A stretch of DNA of 37,030 nucleotides, from NCBI GenBank assembly GCA_021815055.1, contig JAKAHJ010000004.1, positions 1 to 37,030 of the forward strand, read 5' to 3'. Below, one piece after another: positions 8,277 to 30,223 of the stretch. The first letter of the stretch is position 1. Each line of letters starts with the position of its first letter. The position numbers were made by a program, and so were the translations under genes. The DNA is from Pseudomonadota bacterium. Lineage in GTDB: Bacteria > Pseudomonadota > Alphaproteobacteria > Rhizobiales > Xanthobacteraceae. Under the pieces are notes generated by a model. That model had not been told where the DNA came from. It saw nothing but the letters and a program-made list of their open reading frames with translations, and did not search any database.

Positions 8277-10637
8277 TCACGCAATCTTGAAAATCGCGGT
8301 CGCCGGCCGCTTGACCTGATCGAGAATGAACGCGAAGCCGATGGCCGCCAAGAATACGGCCGCGAGGGCGCGCCACGTCATCGCCTGCATGAGCGTGCCG
8401 GATAATGCGAGCGTGATGGCAATCGTGACGTCGGCGACGGATGAGGCAAAAATCCAATTGCTTGGCCGCGAGCTCCACATGTGGCGTCGCTCGCGCAGCA
8501 CGAACAGGACGGCCTGATTTCCGAAAACCAGCGTGACGAAGGCCAGCGTTTGCAGCTCGGGTTGACTCAATCCGAACCGGAATTTCCCGATCGCCAGAAT
8601 CATCGTGGAAAAGCCGAGCTTGCACGCGCCCAGCATCGCCGCGGCGGCCGTGACGTTGGGCATGCGCCAGACGCTGGGCGTGGGTGCCGGGCTGGCACGG
8701 TCGGTGGTGAGCGACATGGACAGGAAGTCGTTCGTCATGAACAACATCACCATCAGCGCCGGGGTGAGCACGGGTTGGCCGGTGAGGCCCAATCCGATCG
8801 CCAGGAACAGGACGATCTCGATCTTCTTGACCAGCATGTTGAAGGTGTAGGCGAGCAGCCGCTGGAACGCGATGCGGCCTTCCTTGACCGCATCGACGAT
8901 GCCGGCGAGGCCGGGCTCGGTGAGGACCATTCCGGCGGCGGTTTTGGCGGCGTCGGTTGCCGAAGAGACGGCGATGCCGATCTGCGCCTGCCGCAGCGCG
9001 GGTGCGTCGTTGACTCCGTCGCCGCACATGCCAACGGTGTGTGCGTGGTGTTGAAGCGCTTTTACAAGCTGGAATTTTTGCTCGGGCACGATGCGTGCGA
9101 ATACGCCGTATCGATCCACGCTCAATTCTTCCGACAACCGTTCGGCCGGGCAAACGGCGCCAGCAATTCCGACCTTGGCGGCTATGGCCGCCGCTGTCAC
9201 GGCGGAATCGCCGGTGATCATGACGGTGCGGACCCGCATGTCGTGCAGTGCCGCGATGAGCTTGGCCGAATCCTCGCGCGGCGGATCGCTGAGTGCGATG
9301 AGCCCGGCCAGCCGCGGCGGTGCCGGCGTTCCCACTGTAACGGCAATGATACGATGGCCCTGCGCGGCGAGCCCGTCGACCAGTTTGGCCGCTTGCGGCG
9401 GCAGCGTCGCCTGAGCGCCGACGACCTCGAATGCGCCTTTGATGACGTGGAGTTCACGGCCATCCGGATCGCGCGCGAAAGCTTGCGATGTCTTTACCGC
9501 CGGATCGAACGGCACGAAACGTTCGAGCCGGCTGCGCGGTTTGCTCGCGCCGGCCTGGGCCGCAGCAGCCCGGATGGCGGCATCGATCGGATCCTGATCG
9601 GCCTCCGAACTCGCCAAAGCGGCAAGCCGCAGGATGCCGTCGCGATCGAAGCCGTCCATGGCGACGATGTCGACGACCTCCAGATTATTGCGCGTCAAAG
9701 TGCCGGTCTTGTCGGCACAGAGCACATCCATCGCGGCGGCTTCGTGCGCGGCCGAGAGCCGCGTCAGCAGCACGCCACGCCGCGTGAGTACCTGGGCCGA
9801 AAGCGCGGCGGACAGCGCAAAGGTCGCCGGCAGCGCCAGCGGCATTGTCGCAAGCAATGCGGTCAGCGCGAGCCCGACCAAGTCCGGAAACGGCAGGGCC
9901 ATGAAATAGGCGGCAGCGACGATCAGCACCGCCACCGTTCCGTTCACGATCGCGAGATTGCGCGTGGCGGCGAATACGGCCCGTTGTTCGGTGCTGGCTG
10001 AATGCGCCACGCGTACAAGCTCGGCGGTGCGGCCAAAACTGGTGCGCGATCCGGTCGCGGTCACTTCGGCGATGGCCTGGCCGCGGCGCACCAGTGAACC
10101 GGCATAGGTGCGGTCGCCGGGGCCGGCGTCGACGGGAAGCGACTCCCCCGTCAGCATCGACTGGTCGGCCATGATCGTTCCCGACACCACCGTTGCATCG
10201 GCGGGGACCAGGGCCCCCATGGCCAGCCGGATGGCGTCGCCCGGAACAAGTTCGGACGCCGGCATGCGCCGCCACTCACCGTCGCGGCTCACCAGCGCGG
10301 TCGGGGCGAGCTTTTGCTTGAGCGCGGCAAGCGCAGCGCCGGCCCGGCTTTCCTGGACGAATGCGAGGATCGTATTGAACAGGAGCAGGCCGCCGATTAC
10401 CGCGGCTTCGACATAGGCGCCGAGCCCAATCTGCAGCAGGATCGCCGCTTCGAGCATCCACGGGATCGGGCTCCAGAATTTCGCCAGAAACACTTTCCAG
10501 CGCGGCGGAAGTTCCTCGCTGACGGCATTGGGCCCGAATTCGGCCAGCCGGCGCCGCGCTTCCGCGCTGGTGAGTCCGCCAATGGCGATGTCTGTCGCCG
10601 GACGGTCGTCAGTGCCGATTGGGGTTGCTTGTGCCAT
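8277..10637 (-). CDS. plasma-membrane proton-efflux P-type ATPase (P3A type)
   Basis: 786 aa, compact like bacterial and archaeal P3A H+-ATPases. Seen in order: a short N-terminal cytoplasmic region, membrane helices from about residue 55, actuator motif TGES (163-166), a PLALPATFALS stretch in M4, the phosphorylation motif DKTGTLT with Asp309, GDGVNDAP in the P domain, and an M6 segment TNDFLSMSLTTDR. That M6 Asp aligns with the proton-binding Asp of plant and fungal pumps, and the following PAPTPSVW also resembles them. Predicted role: ATP-driven proton export that maintains the membrane potential, for example when respiration is limited. First gene of the four-gene operon; a FixK/FNR-like box lies 76-89 bases upstream of its start. 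No C-terminal autoinhibitory domain is seen. Confidence 0.9.
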   Translation of the reverse strand: MAQATPIGTDDRPATDIAIGGLTSAEARRRLAEFGPNAVSEELPPRWKVFLAKFWSPIPWMLEAAILLQIGLGAYVEAAVIGGLLLFNTILAFVQESRAGAALAALKQKLAPTALVSRDGEWRRMPASELVPGDAIRLAMGALVPADATVVSGTIMADQSMLTGESLPVDAGPGDRTYAGSLVRRGQAIAEVTATGSRTSFGRTAELVRVAHSASTEQRAVFAATRNLAIVNGTVAVLIVAAAYFMALPFPDLVGLALTALLATMPLALPATFALSAALSAQVLTRRGVLLTRLSAAHEAAAMDVLCADKTGTLTRNNLEVVDIVAMDGFDRDGILRLAALASSEADQDPIDAAIRAAAAQAGASKPRSRLERFVPFDPAVKTSQAFARDPDGRELHVIKGAFEVVGAQATLPPQAAKLVDGLAAQGHRIIAVTVGTPAPPRLAGLIALSDPPREDSAKLIAALHDMRVRTVMITGDSAVTAAAIAAKVGIAGAVCPAERLSEELSVDRYGVFARIVPEQKFQLVKALQHHAHTVGMCGDGVNDAPALRQAQIGIAVSSATDAAKTAAGMVLTEPGLAGIVDAVKEGRIAFQRLLAYTFNMLVKKIEIVLFLAIGLGLTGQPVLTPALMVMLFMTNDFLSMSLTTDRASPAPTPSVWRMPNVTAAAAMLGACKLGFSTMILAIGKFRFGLSQPELQTLAFVTLVFGNQAVLFVLRERRHMWSSRPSNWIFASSVADVTIAITLALSGTLMQAMTWRALAAVFLAAIGFAFILDQVKRPATAIFKIA

Positions 10638-15676: not shown

Positions 15677-16489
15677 CTATTCGCCGGTTTGCATGAGCGA
15701 GCCTTGCACGCGTGCGCTGCGCAACAGTTTCAAGAACGCGAATGTTGCAGCAGCGAACAGCACGACGTTGAACGCAAAAGCCTGCAGCATCAGGTCGGCG
15801 CGGAACACATGGTCGATCAGCAGTGCCCGCATGCCTTCGAACACATAGGTCGGCGGCAGCGCCCACGCCACGTATTGCAGCCAATGCGGCAATACCGCCA
15901 CTGGGTAGTAGACGCAGGTGAGCGGCAGAAACAGGAACATGATGGTCCAGGCGAGGCTTTCCGCGCCCATGCCGTTGCGCAGCAACAGGCCCGCGACGAA
16001 GATGCCGATCGACCAGCTCGTCAGAATCAAGTTGAGGAAGAAAGCCGCCAGCGCGAGGCCGAGCGACCATAGATTGAATCCGAAAAAAGCGACCGCGAGC
16101 AGAGTCACCGGCACCATGCCGATCGCGAGGCGCACGACGCTCATGATCATCAGCGCGGCGATGAATTCGACCGGCCGCAACGGCGACATCATCAGATTGC
16201 CGACGTTGCGCGACCACATCTCTTCGAGGAACGAGATCGAAAACCCGAGCTGCCCGCGAAACAGAATGTCCCACAACAGCACCGCGCCGATGAATACGCC
16301 GCCGGCCTGCGCGAAAAAGCCGGCGTTCTGCGCGACATACATTTGCAGAAAGCCCCACATCAGCATCTGCACGGTCGGCCAATAAATGAGGTCGAGCATG
16401 CGCGGCCAGGACGAGCGCAGCAGATACCAATAGCGCCGCACCATGGCGCCGACGCGGGTGAGGGAGAAAGTTGATTCGCTCGCGCTCAT
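15677..16489 (-). CDS. ABC-2 type transporter permease
   Basis: 270 aa with about six membrane helices and the ABC-2 export permease pattern. A cytoplasmic N-terminus is followed by a helix around FIGAVLLWDILFRGQLG, the RNVGNLMMSPLRPVEF loop, and later FLFLPLTCVYYPVAVLP and LPPTYVFEGMR, typical of this family. It forms the membrane part of an exporter with the ATPase encoded to its right. The cargo is unknown; related permeases move lipids, polysaccharides or drugs. The two genes read the same way but are 260 bases apart, and most of that gap is a large multi-arm palindrome. Confidence 0.9.
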   Translation of the reverse strand: MSASESTFSLTRVGAMVRRYWYLLRSSWPRMLDLIYWPTVQMLMWGFLQMYVAQNAGFFAQAGGVFIGAVLLWDILFRGQLGFSISFLEEMWSRNVGNLMMSPLRPVEFIAALMIMSVVRLAIGMVPVTLLAVAFFGFNLWSLGLALAAFFLNLILTSWSIGIFVAGLLLRNGMGAESLAWTIMFLFLPLTCVYYPVAVLPHWLQYVAWALPPTYVFEGMRALLIDHVFRADLMLQAFAFNVVLFAAATFAFLKLLRSARVQGSLMQTGE

Positions 16490-16509
16490 CTTGTCGAAGC
16501 CCCTCCCGG

Positions 16510-16703
16510 CCTCATGCTGAGGAGCGCTCCATCGATGTCGGGTTTACCTGACATCGATGCTTTAGCGGCGCAAGTCGGCTAAAGCCGACTTGCGTGGAGC
16601 GCGTCTCGAAGAGCATGGGGCCGCCCCATCCTTCGAGACGCATTGCCATAGCGCGCCGAAGACGCGCGTAAACGCGCTGATGGCAATGCTCCTCAGGATG
16701 AGG
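16510..16703. repeat. multi-arm palindromic element inside the ABC operon
   Basis: A 16-bp closing inverted repeat with one mismatch (CCTCATGCTGAGGAGC at 16510-16525; partner at 16688-16703) encloses four hairpins in a row. They are 16530-16559 (10 bp extending to 13 with a TTTA loop), 16569-16594 (12 bp), 16601-16641 (11 bp plus an inner 6 bp) and 16642-16687 (8 bp plus an inner 6 bp). Folded, it is a five-way junction in RNA or extruded DNA. The outer arms and third arm resemble palindromes that I recall as widespread in Bradyrhizobiaceae genomes; the other arms look like inserted modules. It would be transcribed between the ABC ATPase and permease genes. Confidence 0.85.
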
Positions 16704-16749
16704 CGGTGAAAGGCCGCGCCAAAACGCGATGGAGACGCAAGTACACCCC

Positions 16750-17511
16750 TCACTGCGCCGCCTCCCTTTGCCGGTCGCGCCCGCGCGCGACGTCGAGGAA
16801 GACTTCCTCCAGCGTTTCGCGGCCGTAGCGCGAAAGCAGCCGTTCGGGCGTGTCGTCGTCCTCGATGCGGCCCTTCTTCATGATGATCACCCGCTCGCAC
16901 AGGCGCTCCACCTCGGTCATGTTGTGCGAGGCGAGCAGCACCGTGGCATTGCGGGCCCGTCGGTAATCCTCGAGCCGGCTGCGCACCCAGTCGGCGGTGT
17001 CGGGATCGAGCGAAGCGGTCGGCTCATCGAGCAGCAGCACGTCCGGCTCGTTGAGCAGCGCCTTGGCGAGCGAGACCCGCGTCTTCTGGCCGGCTGAGAG
17101 CTTGCCCGTCGGCCGGTCGAGGAATTCGCGCAGATCGAGATCGGCGGCGAGGCGTTCGATCCGCCCATCGATGTCGGGCACCGCATAAAGCTGCGCGAAA
17201 ACCGAGAGATTCTGCCGCACGGTGAGCCGCATCGGCATGTCGACATAAGGGCTTTCGAAATTCATCCGGTGCAGCACGCGGTAGCGCTCGTCCGGCATGC
17301 TTGCGCCGAGCACGGAGACGGTGCCCGCAGTGGGGGTGACGAGGCCCATGATCATGGCGATCGTGGTCGTCTTGCCGGCGCCGTTGCCGCCGAGCAGACC
17401 GGTGATCGTCCCTGCGGGCAGGCTGAAGGAGACACCATCGACCGCGGTCGTGGTCTTATAGCGCTTGACCAGGCGGTCGACGGCGATGGCCGGGGTGTCC
17501 TGCGCGTGCAT
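16750..17511 (-). CDS. ABC transporter ATP-binding protein
   Basis: 253 aa from the ATG at 17511; the frame opens 20 codons earlier but that part looks non-coding. Walker A GGNGAGKTT (41-49), signature LSAGQKTR, Walker B VLLLDEPTA, and the switch histidine in LASHNMTE are intact. A short C-terminal part (ERLLSRYGRETLEEVFLDVAR) is typical of ATPases that drive ABC-2 exporters. It powers the permease encoded downstream. The gene is divergent from regB, with 103 bases between the starts. Confidence 0.93.
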   Translation of the reverse strand: MHAQDTPAIAVDRLVKRYKTTTAVDGVSFSLPAGTITGLLGGNGAGKTTTIAMIMGLVTPTAGTVSVLGASMPDERYRVLHRMNFESPYVDMPMRLTVRQNLSVFAQLYAVPDIDGRIERLAADLDLREFLDRPTGKLSAGQKTRVSLAKALLNEPDVLLLDEPTASLDPDTADWVRSRLEDYRRARNATVLLASHNMTEVERLCERVIIMKKGRIEDDDTPERLLSRYGRETLEEVFLDVARGRDRQREAAQ

Positions 17512-23647: not shown

Positions 23648-23788
23648 ATCCCTCCCCCGCTTGCGGGGGAGGGTGCCCGTCGAAGCCCGAAGGGCGAAGG
23701 CGGGCGGGTGGGGGCAGCCTAGTTTTGCAATTAAACCCCACCCGGCTCGCGCTTCGCGCTCGCCACCCTCCCCTTGCAGGGGAGGGAT
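23648..23788. repeat. multi-arm palindromic element A
   Basis: Closed by ATCCCTCCCC (23648-23657) and its exact reverse complement (23779-23788). Inside are a 9-bp hairpin (23650-23673), GCCC-GAA-GGGC (23685-23695), CGGGTGGGG with CCCCACCCG (23705-23744), and a 9-bp hairpin (23766-23786). It begins about 70 bases upstream of gcdH. The segment 23681-23704 recurs in inverted orientation at about 23955-23978. Stems are GC-rich and long, so accidental pairing is unlikely. Confidence 0.8.
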
Positions 23789-24010
23789 AAGCGAGGTCGC
23801 GGCCGCCCCATCGTGACTCACCGATTCAATTGTCAAATAGCCAACGCGGCGCACGGCAGGCTTGCCCGTTTCGCGCCAAGGAGCGCGCTAAGGAGCGCGC
23901 CAAGGCAAGCATCATCGCCCGTGTTCTTTGCGGCGCCGGGTACGCCGTCGTCCACCCGCCTTCGCCCTTCGGGCTTCGGCGCGGCAAGTCAACGCCCCCT
24001 CGAGGGGAGC

Positions 24011-24153: not shown

Positions 24154-24356
24154 GGCGTCCGGGCCGCGCTTCCGAAGGAGCCTTAAAGGCTCGCATCGTC
24201 AGCCAGCTCCTGGCGGGGGGTCCTATTGCCCCCGGGCGGAGCCCCGGCGCCGCCCGAGCGCGTGAGGTGCGTTTCCTCACGCCCGCGGGCGCCACGTCGC
24301 CGATGCCGGGTTTACCCGGTATCGGCCCAGTAAAGGCGGCTCCGCTTCACGACGCC
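24154..24356. repeat. multi-arm palindromic element C
   Basis: Outer pairings GGCGTC/GACGCC (24154-24159 with 24351-24356) and GGAGCC/GGCTCC (24177-24182 with 24338-24343) surround a series of hairpins. The best are 24178-24192 (7 bp), 24214-24234 (6 bp), 24260-24282 (8 bp) and 24299-24326 (12 bp, one G-T pair, TTTA loop). The last arm shares its GGTTTACC core and TTTA loop with an arm of the element at 16530-16559. The closing stem is weaker than in element B, so the outer boundary is uncertain. Confidence 0.65.
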
Positions 24357-26299: not shown

Positions 26300-27375
26300 T
26301 CCGCCGCGATGGCCGTGAAGGTCCGGCTGCTGCCGCCGGGCGGATCGAGATCGGGATCGACCGCGACGGCTTTTTTGAATTTCTCGAGCAGCATCGGGCG
26401 ATGGGCGTCGATATTGTCGGGCAGGCAATGGCTGAGCTGGCCGCAATTGCCGCAGACGCCGTTCTGCCGGCGGCGGCCCTCGAGATGCTGGAGGCGGAGC
26501 GCGTTCATGCGCTCGGACGTCCATATCTCCTTCATCGATTGCTGGCGCACGTCGCCGATTATCAGCTTGCGGCCCCAATCCAGGAAGCAGGACGAGATGA
26601 GGCCGTCCGCATTCACCGAATAGCCGTAGAAGATGTAGGGGCAGGTGTCGGTATCGCCGACGTCCTGCTGATAGATGCCCTGGCTGATGGTGACGCCGGT
26701 GTGTTCGGCGATGTCGAATTCCGGCCAGCAGGGCGCGAAATTTTCGACGAAGATGCGGTCGCAGTGATCGCCGAACGTGTCGAAGAATTTCTGCCGCTCG
26801 GCCTCGGTGATCAGTTCGCCGGGGATTTTCACGGCGACTTCGCAATTGCCCCTGTTGGCATAGAGCCAGCGCACATTCTCGACGAATTTCTCGAAGTCGA
26901 ATTTGAAGCCGGTGAAGCGCAGGTAGGTTTCCTGGCTCATGCCGTCGACCGAGATGTTGATCTTGTCGATGCCGGCTTCGAGCACGGGGCCGAGGCGTTC
27001 GGGCGTAATGAGCGTGCCGTTGGTGGTGGTGTCGATATAATCGATATGACCGGAGCGCTTGGCATAGCCGACCATGTCGGCGAAGCGCTTGTTGAGGAAC
27101 GGCTCGCCGTCCTTGTACAGGCGCAGCACCTTGATCGGCTTGTCGAAGGCGCCGAGGTCGTCGACGATCTTCTGGAACAGCTCGTATTTCATCGCGCCCT
27201 GGAAGCGACCGGTCTCCGCGATCAGGTCGCGGTGGCCGGTCGGGCAGAAGGTGCATTTGAAATTGCAGGAACTCGCCGGGTCGACGAACACGATGAAGGG
27301 CGTCGCCAGCGGGATCACGGTTTCGAGCGGCGTGCGCCCTTCGAGATTGATTCGCGGCTGCAACCGGGCTTTCAC
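26296..27375 (-). CDS. radical SAM/SPASM enzyme (paralogue 1)
   Basis: 359 aa from the GTG at 27375 (AAGGAA upstream; the opening VKARLQPR matches the MKAKYRSR start of its paralogue at 29204). The radical SAM cluster motif is Cys37-x3-Cys41-x2-Cys44 (CNFKCTFCPTG). A C-terminal SPASM/twitch-type domain has CPYIFYGYSVNADGLISSC and a distal CGNC, enough for one auxiliary Fe-S cluster. DTTTNGT and KINISVDG fit the TIM-barrel core. SPASM enzymes modify peptides or sugars; next to a glycosyltransferase, sugar epimerisation or dehydrogenation is the likelier role. The reaction is not predictable from sequence. Confidence 0.85.
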   Translation of the reverse strand: MKARLQPRINLEGRTPLETVIPLATPFIVFVDPASSCNFKCTFCPTGHRDLIAETGRFQGAMKYELFQKIVDDLGAFDKPIKVLRLYKDGEPFLNKRFADMVGYAKRSGHIDYIDTTTNGTLITPERLGPVLEAGIDKINISVDGMSQETYLRFTGFKFDFEKFVENVRWLYANRGNCEVAVKIPGELITEAERQKFFDTFGDHCDRIFVENFAPCWPEFDIAEHTGVTISQGIYQQDVGDTDTCPYIFYGYSVNADGLISSCFLDWGRKLIIGDVRQQSMKEIWTSERMNALRLQHLEGRRRQNGVCGNCGQLSHCLPDNIDAHRPMLLEKFKKAVAVDPDLDPPGGSSRTFTAIAAE

Positions 27376-29203: not shown

Positions 29204-30223
29204 ATGAAGGCGAAGTACCGCAGCCGGCTGGCCGACAAGAGATGCGATCTCGGACAGGCGGCGCCGCTCGGGACGCCGTTCGTGCTCATCGTCGACCCGG
29301 CGAGCCACTGCAATTTCAAGTGCCGCTTTTGCCCGACCGGCGATCTCGATCTCATTGAAACCACCGGCCGTTACCAAGGGCCGATGGCGTTCGATACGTT
29401 CAAGAAGATCATCGACGACCTGCAAGAATTTTCCGAGCCCGTCAAAGTCCTGCGTCTCTACAAGGAAGGCGAGCCCTTGATGAACAAGCGCTTCGCCGAG
29501 ATGGTTCGCTATGCCCGGTCGAGCGACAAGATCGAGCGGATCGACACCACGACGAACGGCGTTCTGCTGACGCCCAAGACAAGCGAAAAGGTCATCGCTG
29601 CGGGAATCGACCAGATCAACATTTCCGTCAACGGGCTCCGGAACGAGCAATTCGCCGAACTGGTGCAGACGAAGGTCAATTTCGAAAGATATGTCGAGAA
29701 TATCAAGTATCTTTGCAGCATCAAAGGCGACTGCGAAATCTACGTGAAGGCGATCGAGGAAAATCTCTCCGAAGACGACCGCAAGCGGTTCCTCGATATC
29801 TTCGGCGATGTCGCCGACCGCGTTTTTTTCGAGCACCTTTTTCCCAACTGGCCGGGGTTCGAAAGCGATATCATTCCGATGGAATGCTCCGTCGGTCTTT
29901 ACGGCGACGAGGTCCTGGAGAGATCGGTTTGTCCATACATCTTCTATAGTACTACCATCAATTCCGACGGTTCCGTCAGCCTATGCGTGCAGGACTGGGC
30001 GAGGAAACTCGTGGTCGGCTCCGTTGCCGAAGAGTCGGTGCGCGATATCTGGTTAGGGCGGCGTCTCGACGCGCATCGCCTGTCGCACCTGAATGGGCGA
30101 CGCAAGAGCGATCCGACCTGCGCGCAATGCCAGTGCATGTCGCTCGGCGTTTTCGACAACATCGATAGCCGGGCCGGAGAAATAAAGGAACGGTTGTCTT
30201 CGGCAAATCATTACCGCAGGTAG
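29204..30223 (+). CDS. radical SAM/SPASM enzyme (paralogue 2)
   Basis: 339 aa, with GAGG seven bases before the ATG. It is plainly homologous to the enzyme at 26296-27375: PASHCNFKCRFCPTGDLDL (Cys36/40/43), VLRLYKEGEPLMNKRFAEM, DTTTNG and INISVNGL. The C-terminal part has CPYIFYSTTINSDGSVSLC and a CAQC pair for an auxiliary cluster. It probably carries out a radical modification of a sugar or sugar-linked intermediate of the glycan. It opens an operon of seven genes and is followed after five bases by an SDR gene. The two paralogues differ most at their extreme N- and C-termini. Confidence 0.85.
   Translation: MKAKYRSRLADKRCDLGQAAPLGTPFVLIVDPASHCNFKCRFCPTGDLDLIETTGRYQGPMAFDTFKKIIDDLQEFSEPVKVLRLYKEGEPLMNKRFAEMVRYARSSDKIERIDTTTNGVLLTPKTSEKVIAAGIDQINISVNGLRNEQFAELVQTKVNFERYVENIKYLCSIKGDCEIYVKAIEENLSEDDRKRFLDIFGDVADRVFFEHLFPNWPGFESDIIPMECSVGLYGDEVLERSVCPYIFYSTTINSDGSVSLCVQDWARKLVVGSVAEESVRDIWLGRRLDAHRLSHLNGRRKSDPTCAQCQCMSLGVFDNIDSRAGEIKERLSSANHYRR

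Follow-up and report, generated by a model that had tools for sequence, protein, structure and literature searches.

Several palindromic repeats are combined in one intergenic element in the bacterial and Rhizobium interspersed mosaic elements (BIMEs and RIMEs). The usual view of REP-like repeats is that of unchanging palindromes associated with RAYT transposases. In REPINs, REP doublets form hairpins, and a stable long hairpin has been contrasted with a two-hairpin "clover" (PMC3116915). CGTC- and GTAG-tagged REPs, including Bradyrhizobium families, are alphaproteobacterial palindromes that often form head-to-head dimers; the part of their description drawn on here (PMC3733652) further states that heterodimers are preferred in some families, that the CGTC group is unlinked to transposase genes, and that some copies lie inside other palindromes. 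It presents CGTC-tagged REPs as an unpaired CGTC tag, an 8-9 bp stem, a 4-5 nt loop, and a CCA tail. The repeats Br-REP1 and Br-REP2 of Bradyrhizobium are located in 3′-UTRs and intergenic regions (PMC5082802). CGTC REPs and Br-REPs occur in the same order as the repeat family addressed here, which we refer to as U (PMC3733652, PMC5082802).

The locus under study is a 194-base structure within a window (the whole stretch of DNA that was analyzed, 37,030 nucleotides) of a Pseudolabrys (Hyphomicrobiales) MAG that is 69% complete. Assignment to Pseudolabrys rests on named orthologues of the locus. Genome copy counts derive from searches and retrieved stretches of this 2.52-Mb MAG. An earlier note had described a 194-bp palindrome between ATPase and permease genes, in which a 16-bp outer inverted repeat encloses four hairpins. 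Arms and hairpins are present at those coordinates, but the outer repeat is complementary at only 15 of its 16 positions. Its sole mismatch, CATGC versus CATCC, involves exactly the bases that covary within halves across family U. The two half-elements extend over approximately 16508-16705, and the region is organized as follows.

15677-16489, minus strand: ABC-2 type permease gene (PF01061).
16490-16749, minus strand: ATPase-permease gap of 260 bp.
16508-16621, plus strand: left half-element, U half of the CATGC/GCATG type, GGCCTCATGCTGAGGAGC - tip - GCGTCTCGAAGAGCATGGGGCC, from the sequence and a family of 81 distinct halves.
16510-16525, plus strand: left outer arm, CCTCATGCTGAGGAGC, from the sequence.
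16524-16602, plus strand: tip 1, in the left half, with the stem GCGCTCC/GGAGCGC (16524-16530 / 16596-16602) around a twin hairpin; the stem is common to the sibling on contig C47.
16531-16595, plus strand: N1-N2 twin-hairpin module of 65 nt, with N1 at ~16531-16558, a spacer, and N2 at ~16569-16594.
16603-16639, plus strand: facing inner arms GTCTCGAA (16603-16610) and TTCGAGAC (16632-16639), the central hairpin of the cross-half fold.
16622-16705, minus strand: right half-element, inverted, U half of the CATCC/GGATG type, CGCCTCATCCTGAGGAGC - tip with module M - GCGTCTCGAAGGATGGGGC on the minus strand, from the sequence and family comparison.
16640-16689, minus strand: tip 2, in the right half, with the stem GCATTGC/GCAATGC (16640-16646 / 16683-16689) around module M; it shows a compensatory change relative to the C47 sibling.
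16647-16682, minus strand: module M, CATCAGCGCGTTTACGCGCGTCTTCGGCGCGCTATG on the minus strand, 36 nt in the window copy, from genome and genus matches and its orientation in hosts.
16688-16703, plus strand: right outer arm, GCTCCTCAGGATGAGG, 15/16 complementary to the left outer arm, from the sequence.
16750-17511, minus strand: ABC transporter ATPase gene (PF00005); the closest NCBIfam models are DrrA/RbbA/NodI-like, all below cut-off.

The predicted RNA fold of positions 16480-16730 reached -149.9 kcal/mol against a mean of -97.2 for shuffled sequences (z = -10.5), a stability matched by 0 of 200 shuffles. The best Rfam matches to the element lay far below the gathering score, and a known structured RNA family was rejected on this basis.

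A search of the whole genome with a 204-bp stretch yielded 60 matches, almost all of them partial, from which separate modules emerged. At the base is U, a REP-like half-element of the form CCTCATnnTGAGGAGC-tip-GCGTCTCGAAnnATGGGG, or in its longer version GGCCTCATnnTGAGGAGC - tip hairpin - GCGTCTCGAAnnATGGGGCC. Pattern search placed its core (GAGGAGC N6-36 GTCTCGAA) at 51 sites in the 2.52 Mb of this genome, while the reversed pattern used as a control hit none. Two inverted halves with their R sides facing make up the U dimer (~100 bp), a frequent arrangement. Classified by context, U copies in this genome are flanked by tandem (21), convergent (5), or divergent (3) genes, lie inside ORFs (2), or fall at contig edges (5). 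Dimer matches were detected in 39 of the 44 genomes of the genus and, across the order, in 52 of 249 sampled genomes and 34 of 112 genera, both counts being lower bounds. The plasmids of PLSDB gave no match to U. Strict M and U patterns found 0 matches in 507 kb around the permease in named loci, a result uninformative on taxonomic spread, and no relevant paper came up when the literature was searched with the U, M, and N2 sequences. Judged by its sequence, the 194-base structure is a composite of repeats dispersed in multiple copies and not a private cis-element. The window also holds other repeats. A long inverted repeat (27061-27312 / 29264-29515, 74% complementary) lies within two similar, oppositely oriented ORFs that are radical-SAM-like in appearance, and a 30-nt inverted pair of a different repeat family (23678-23707 / 23952-23981) is 93% complementary, with its members ~244 nt apart.

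In the C47 sibling (L002), the left half matches that of the window copy but ends in the tip GCGCTCC-GAA-GGAGCGC, and the right half, again bearing M, matches as well. The 65-nt N1-N2 module of the window copy takes the place of this GAA; elsewhere only a few bases differ, one of the differences being a compensatory change from a T-A to a C-G pair in the M-bearing stem. The N1-spacer-N2 arrangement recurs in further U copies and in other hosts. The earlier note had proposed a nested, modular build and a mobile palindrome with inserted arms; both proposals gain support from the dispersal of every arm as an individual repeat and from this sibling without one of the inserted arms. It had also taken arms never combined elsewhere as evidence to the contrary, which does not hold for pairs, since U with M and U with N1-N2 recur together. 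An N1-like hairpin, CGATGCCGGGTTTACCCGGTATCG, is also present at positions 24301-24324 of the window.

Module M, 36-38 nt in length, has 12 copies in this genome and matches in 39 of the 44 genomes of the genus. It occupies the tips of five palindrome host families, namely, U, a Br-REP2-like palindrome (ATTCCGGG...CCCGGAAT), CCCGGACGCG, CTCTCCCATAGGGAGAGG, and CGTCCCGGGCGAG. A rule symmetric for both directions assigned 56 copies to the forward and 0 to the reverse orientation in their hosts, leaving 18 unassigned, five of which (L280, L281, L289, L298, and L316) were read by eye as reversed. The exact ratio is uncertain because of these five reversals and the possible kinship of copies between genomes, but the orientation bias of M appears strong. 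Hosts of the CGTC type and the CCCTCCCC type carry a variant of M, its polarity likewise constant as read by eye. Three further observations concern this module. Within one host tip it can stand in tandem with a 32-bp period (three copies in L286 and at least three in L336). Positions 1, 12, and 24 of its core covary in a few events, as if one strand served two alternative hairpins. Finally, one congener (G028) has 64 M matches, far above the others, which suggests a recent expansion.

If M and N1-N2 were not mobile and the host families all went back to one ancestor with these tips in place, later divergence of the arms, with retention or loss of the tips, would directly explain why M has a single orientation in every one of its host families. 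However, no arm sequence is common to the hosts, the majority of U copies lack M and carry instead one of 41 different short tip stems, and N1-N2 is missing from the tip of the C47 sibling although the rest of that element is almost identical to the window copy. We therefore regard common descent of the tips as unlikely. Exchange of tips, as preferred here, involves modules that, by sequence comparison, are common to unrelated hosts in a fixed orientation. The loops of these tips are also distinctive. Among 100 clean tip hairpins, whose stems were of 41 different kinds, GNA formed 76 of 85 triloops and GNNA 10 of 12 tetraloops (86 of 97 loops overall). Loops of both types yield extraordinarily stable DNA minihairpins (PMC4686876), which would favor a role as single-stranded DNA; the strand matters because its complement carries TNC loops.

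To place the element in its genomic context, ATPase orthologues were sought in the 44 genomes of the genus, and 40 had the complete ATPase-permease pair. The gap is closed (ATGA overlap or ≤40 nt) in 23 of these, often by ATGA, 14 have recognizable palindrome repeats in it, and 3 gaps are unclassified. Only the window copy belongs to U; the 13 gap-filled relatives have palindromes of four other families, i.e., CGTCCCCG-type (7 genomes), Br-REP2-like (3), GTGTCCCGG (2), and CCCTCCCC (1). On a tree of the two proteins, gap states changed at least 16 times and clustered no more than shuffled labels did, indicating turnover of the gap content in the relatives. As controls, the RegB-RegA gap contained no such repeat in any of 30 genomes, and the gap between the permease and PHA depolymerase genes, ~104-118 bp and nearly constant across Pseudolabrys loci, contained no palindromes; both controls are imperfect because either gap may hold a promoter. 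In the window, ~45 and 18 nt of extra nonpalindromic sequence surround the element; no precise empty chromosomal site was defined, and no transposition event was seen.

The element separates two genes that overlap in many relatives, and a putative effect on the ATPase:permease ratio is plausible. A GGAGG-like site reads ahead of the permease start. No terminator-like site (GC-rich hairpin plus T run) was found on either strand of 16490-16749, which led to rejection of an intrinsic terminator. A dedicated cis-acting RNA structure, selected in the operon to set that ratio through processing, attenuation, or stability, is in keeping with the very stable predicted fold, with a site between genes that in most relatives touch or overlap, and with palindromes in the same gap of 13 relatives and in neither of two nearby gaps, so that structure there may be beneficial. 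Yet every module is dispersed genome-wide, the palindromes of the relatives come from other repeat families, 23 of the 40 genomes have no real gap, and the transcribed strand of the gap lacks a terminator; selection for such a dedicated device is improbable.

We compared 81 distinct U halves from this genome and its relatives. The variable triplets were TCC/GGA (34), TGG/CCA (28), TGC/GCA (8), and CCC/GGG (2), giving exact complementarity within the half in 72 of the 81. Unlike halves are joined in 16 of the 17 U dimers of this genome (10.6 expected by chance; p = 4e-4). The heterodimer conclusion rests on this set, most of whose copies came from pattern searches that ignore the variable bases; in other genomes, by contrast, BLAST with a heterodimer query supplied many of the copies. 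Other, smaller dimer sets showed the same leaning or were uninformative. Joining unlike halves introduces mismatches in the cross-half stem, so cross-half pairing is weakened while within-half pairing is kept, which points to two separate hairpins as the conserved unit. Predicted RNA energies disagree. The five-way junction proposed in the earlier note is indeed the lowest-energy RNA fold of the window copy (-133.3 versus -125.4 kcal/mol for two hairpins, a gap of ~8 kcal/mol), and a cross-half fold is favored in 31 of 35 dimers, mostly by a small margin. We gave more weight to covariation, which together with the heterodimers favors two hairpins. That the whole dimer acts as one conserved cross-half fold (five-way junction or REPIN-type long hairpin), with the half hairpins secondary, is highly improbable, for it has the energies on its side but both the within-half complementarity and the mismatched stems of the heterodimers against it.

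A mobilizing enzyme was also considered. Y1/RAYT transposases (Y1_Tnp matches) occur in 5 of the 44 genomes of the genus, with a U half nearby in only one, and are thus too rare for a general mobilizer, a role for which RAYTs were rejected. Two Y1/RAYT genes belong to this genome. One of them, a Y1/RAYT-like gene (L127; contig C20, ~9194-9960), has a single U half-element ~255 nt downstream. As in MITEs, the outer arms are inverted repeats, but neither a target duplication nor a parent transposon was found in a nonexhaustive search. We tentatively propose that M and N1-N2 moved between unrelated palindrome families of these Alphaproteobacteria by a strand-specific process on single-stranded DNA hairpin tips, with an enzyme distinct from RAYTs; repeat families would then evolve by tip exchange.

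Collectively, these observations point, with a probability of roughly three in four (0.77), to a nonautonomous mosaic mobile element of REPIN-like type whose hairpin tips can be exchanged. Its base would be an inverted heterodimer of two hairpin-forming U half units, each with an exchangeable tip, and the window copy would bear the twin-hairpin N1-N2 in one tip and module M in the other. Apparent in the sequences are its modular build, within-half pairing, heterodimers, and an empty-tip sibling. Strand specificity and the GNA/GNNA loops suggest that the units, as folded single-stranded DNA, spread and exchange their tips. The element may have entered, or been built up in, the ATPase-permease gap because this gap tolerates insertion under relaxed constraint. 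In mRNA, it would break the ATGA translational coupling of ATPase and permease, and it may protect the ATPase message, shifting output toward the ATPase. On this reading, the hairpin tip behaves as a cassette of its own that can be exchanged, keeps a fixed strand polarity, has DNA-type loops, and is common to unrelated families. The gap also shows how different palindromes can repeatedly come between two coupled genes. Sequence data and simple assays could now test whether such repeats act at the DNA or the RNA level and by what route they spread in the absence of a transposase.

Among known systems, BIMEs and RIMEs resemble the element in that each joins several palindromic repeats into a single intergenic mosaic. 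Tip modules of fixed orientation that are common to several families were not found described in a search confined largely to openly accessible papers. Br-REPs are related to it in that a Br-REP2-like palindrome hosts module M and is among the fillers of the ATPase-permease gap in relatives, but the sequences of U, M, and N1-N2 differ, and tip modules are not described in PMC5082802. CGTC/GTAG REPs share with U the nature of alphaproteobacterial palindromic repeats, dimers, a heterodimer preference, and, for CGTC, no transposase link, as far as the text of PMC3733652 goes. Within U, GCGTCTCGAA includes CGTC, but the stem, loop, and tail of U are unlike those of CGTC REPs in a comparison with that text only, in which the U consensus does not occur and exchange of tip modules among several families in a fixed orientation is not described. 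REPINs differ in that conserved bases pair across the doublet, whereas U forms mostly heterodimers with within-half covariation, even if RNA energies still slightly favor cross-half pairing; U tips can be exchanged, and most genomes of the genus lack a RAYT, with no RAYT gene flanked by the repeat as a rule. Nevertheless, U likewise consists of short extragenic palindromes in many copies (51 halves), its dimers are inverted doublets predicted to form hairpins, and the long hairpin and clover of REPINs (PMC3116915) are the same two alternative folds that U dimers can adopt. REPINs are the closest kind to this element.
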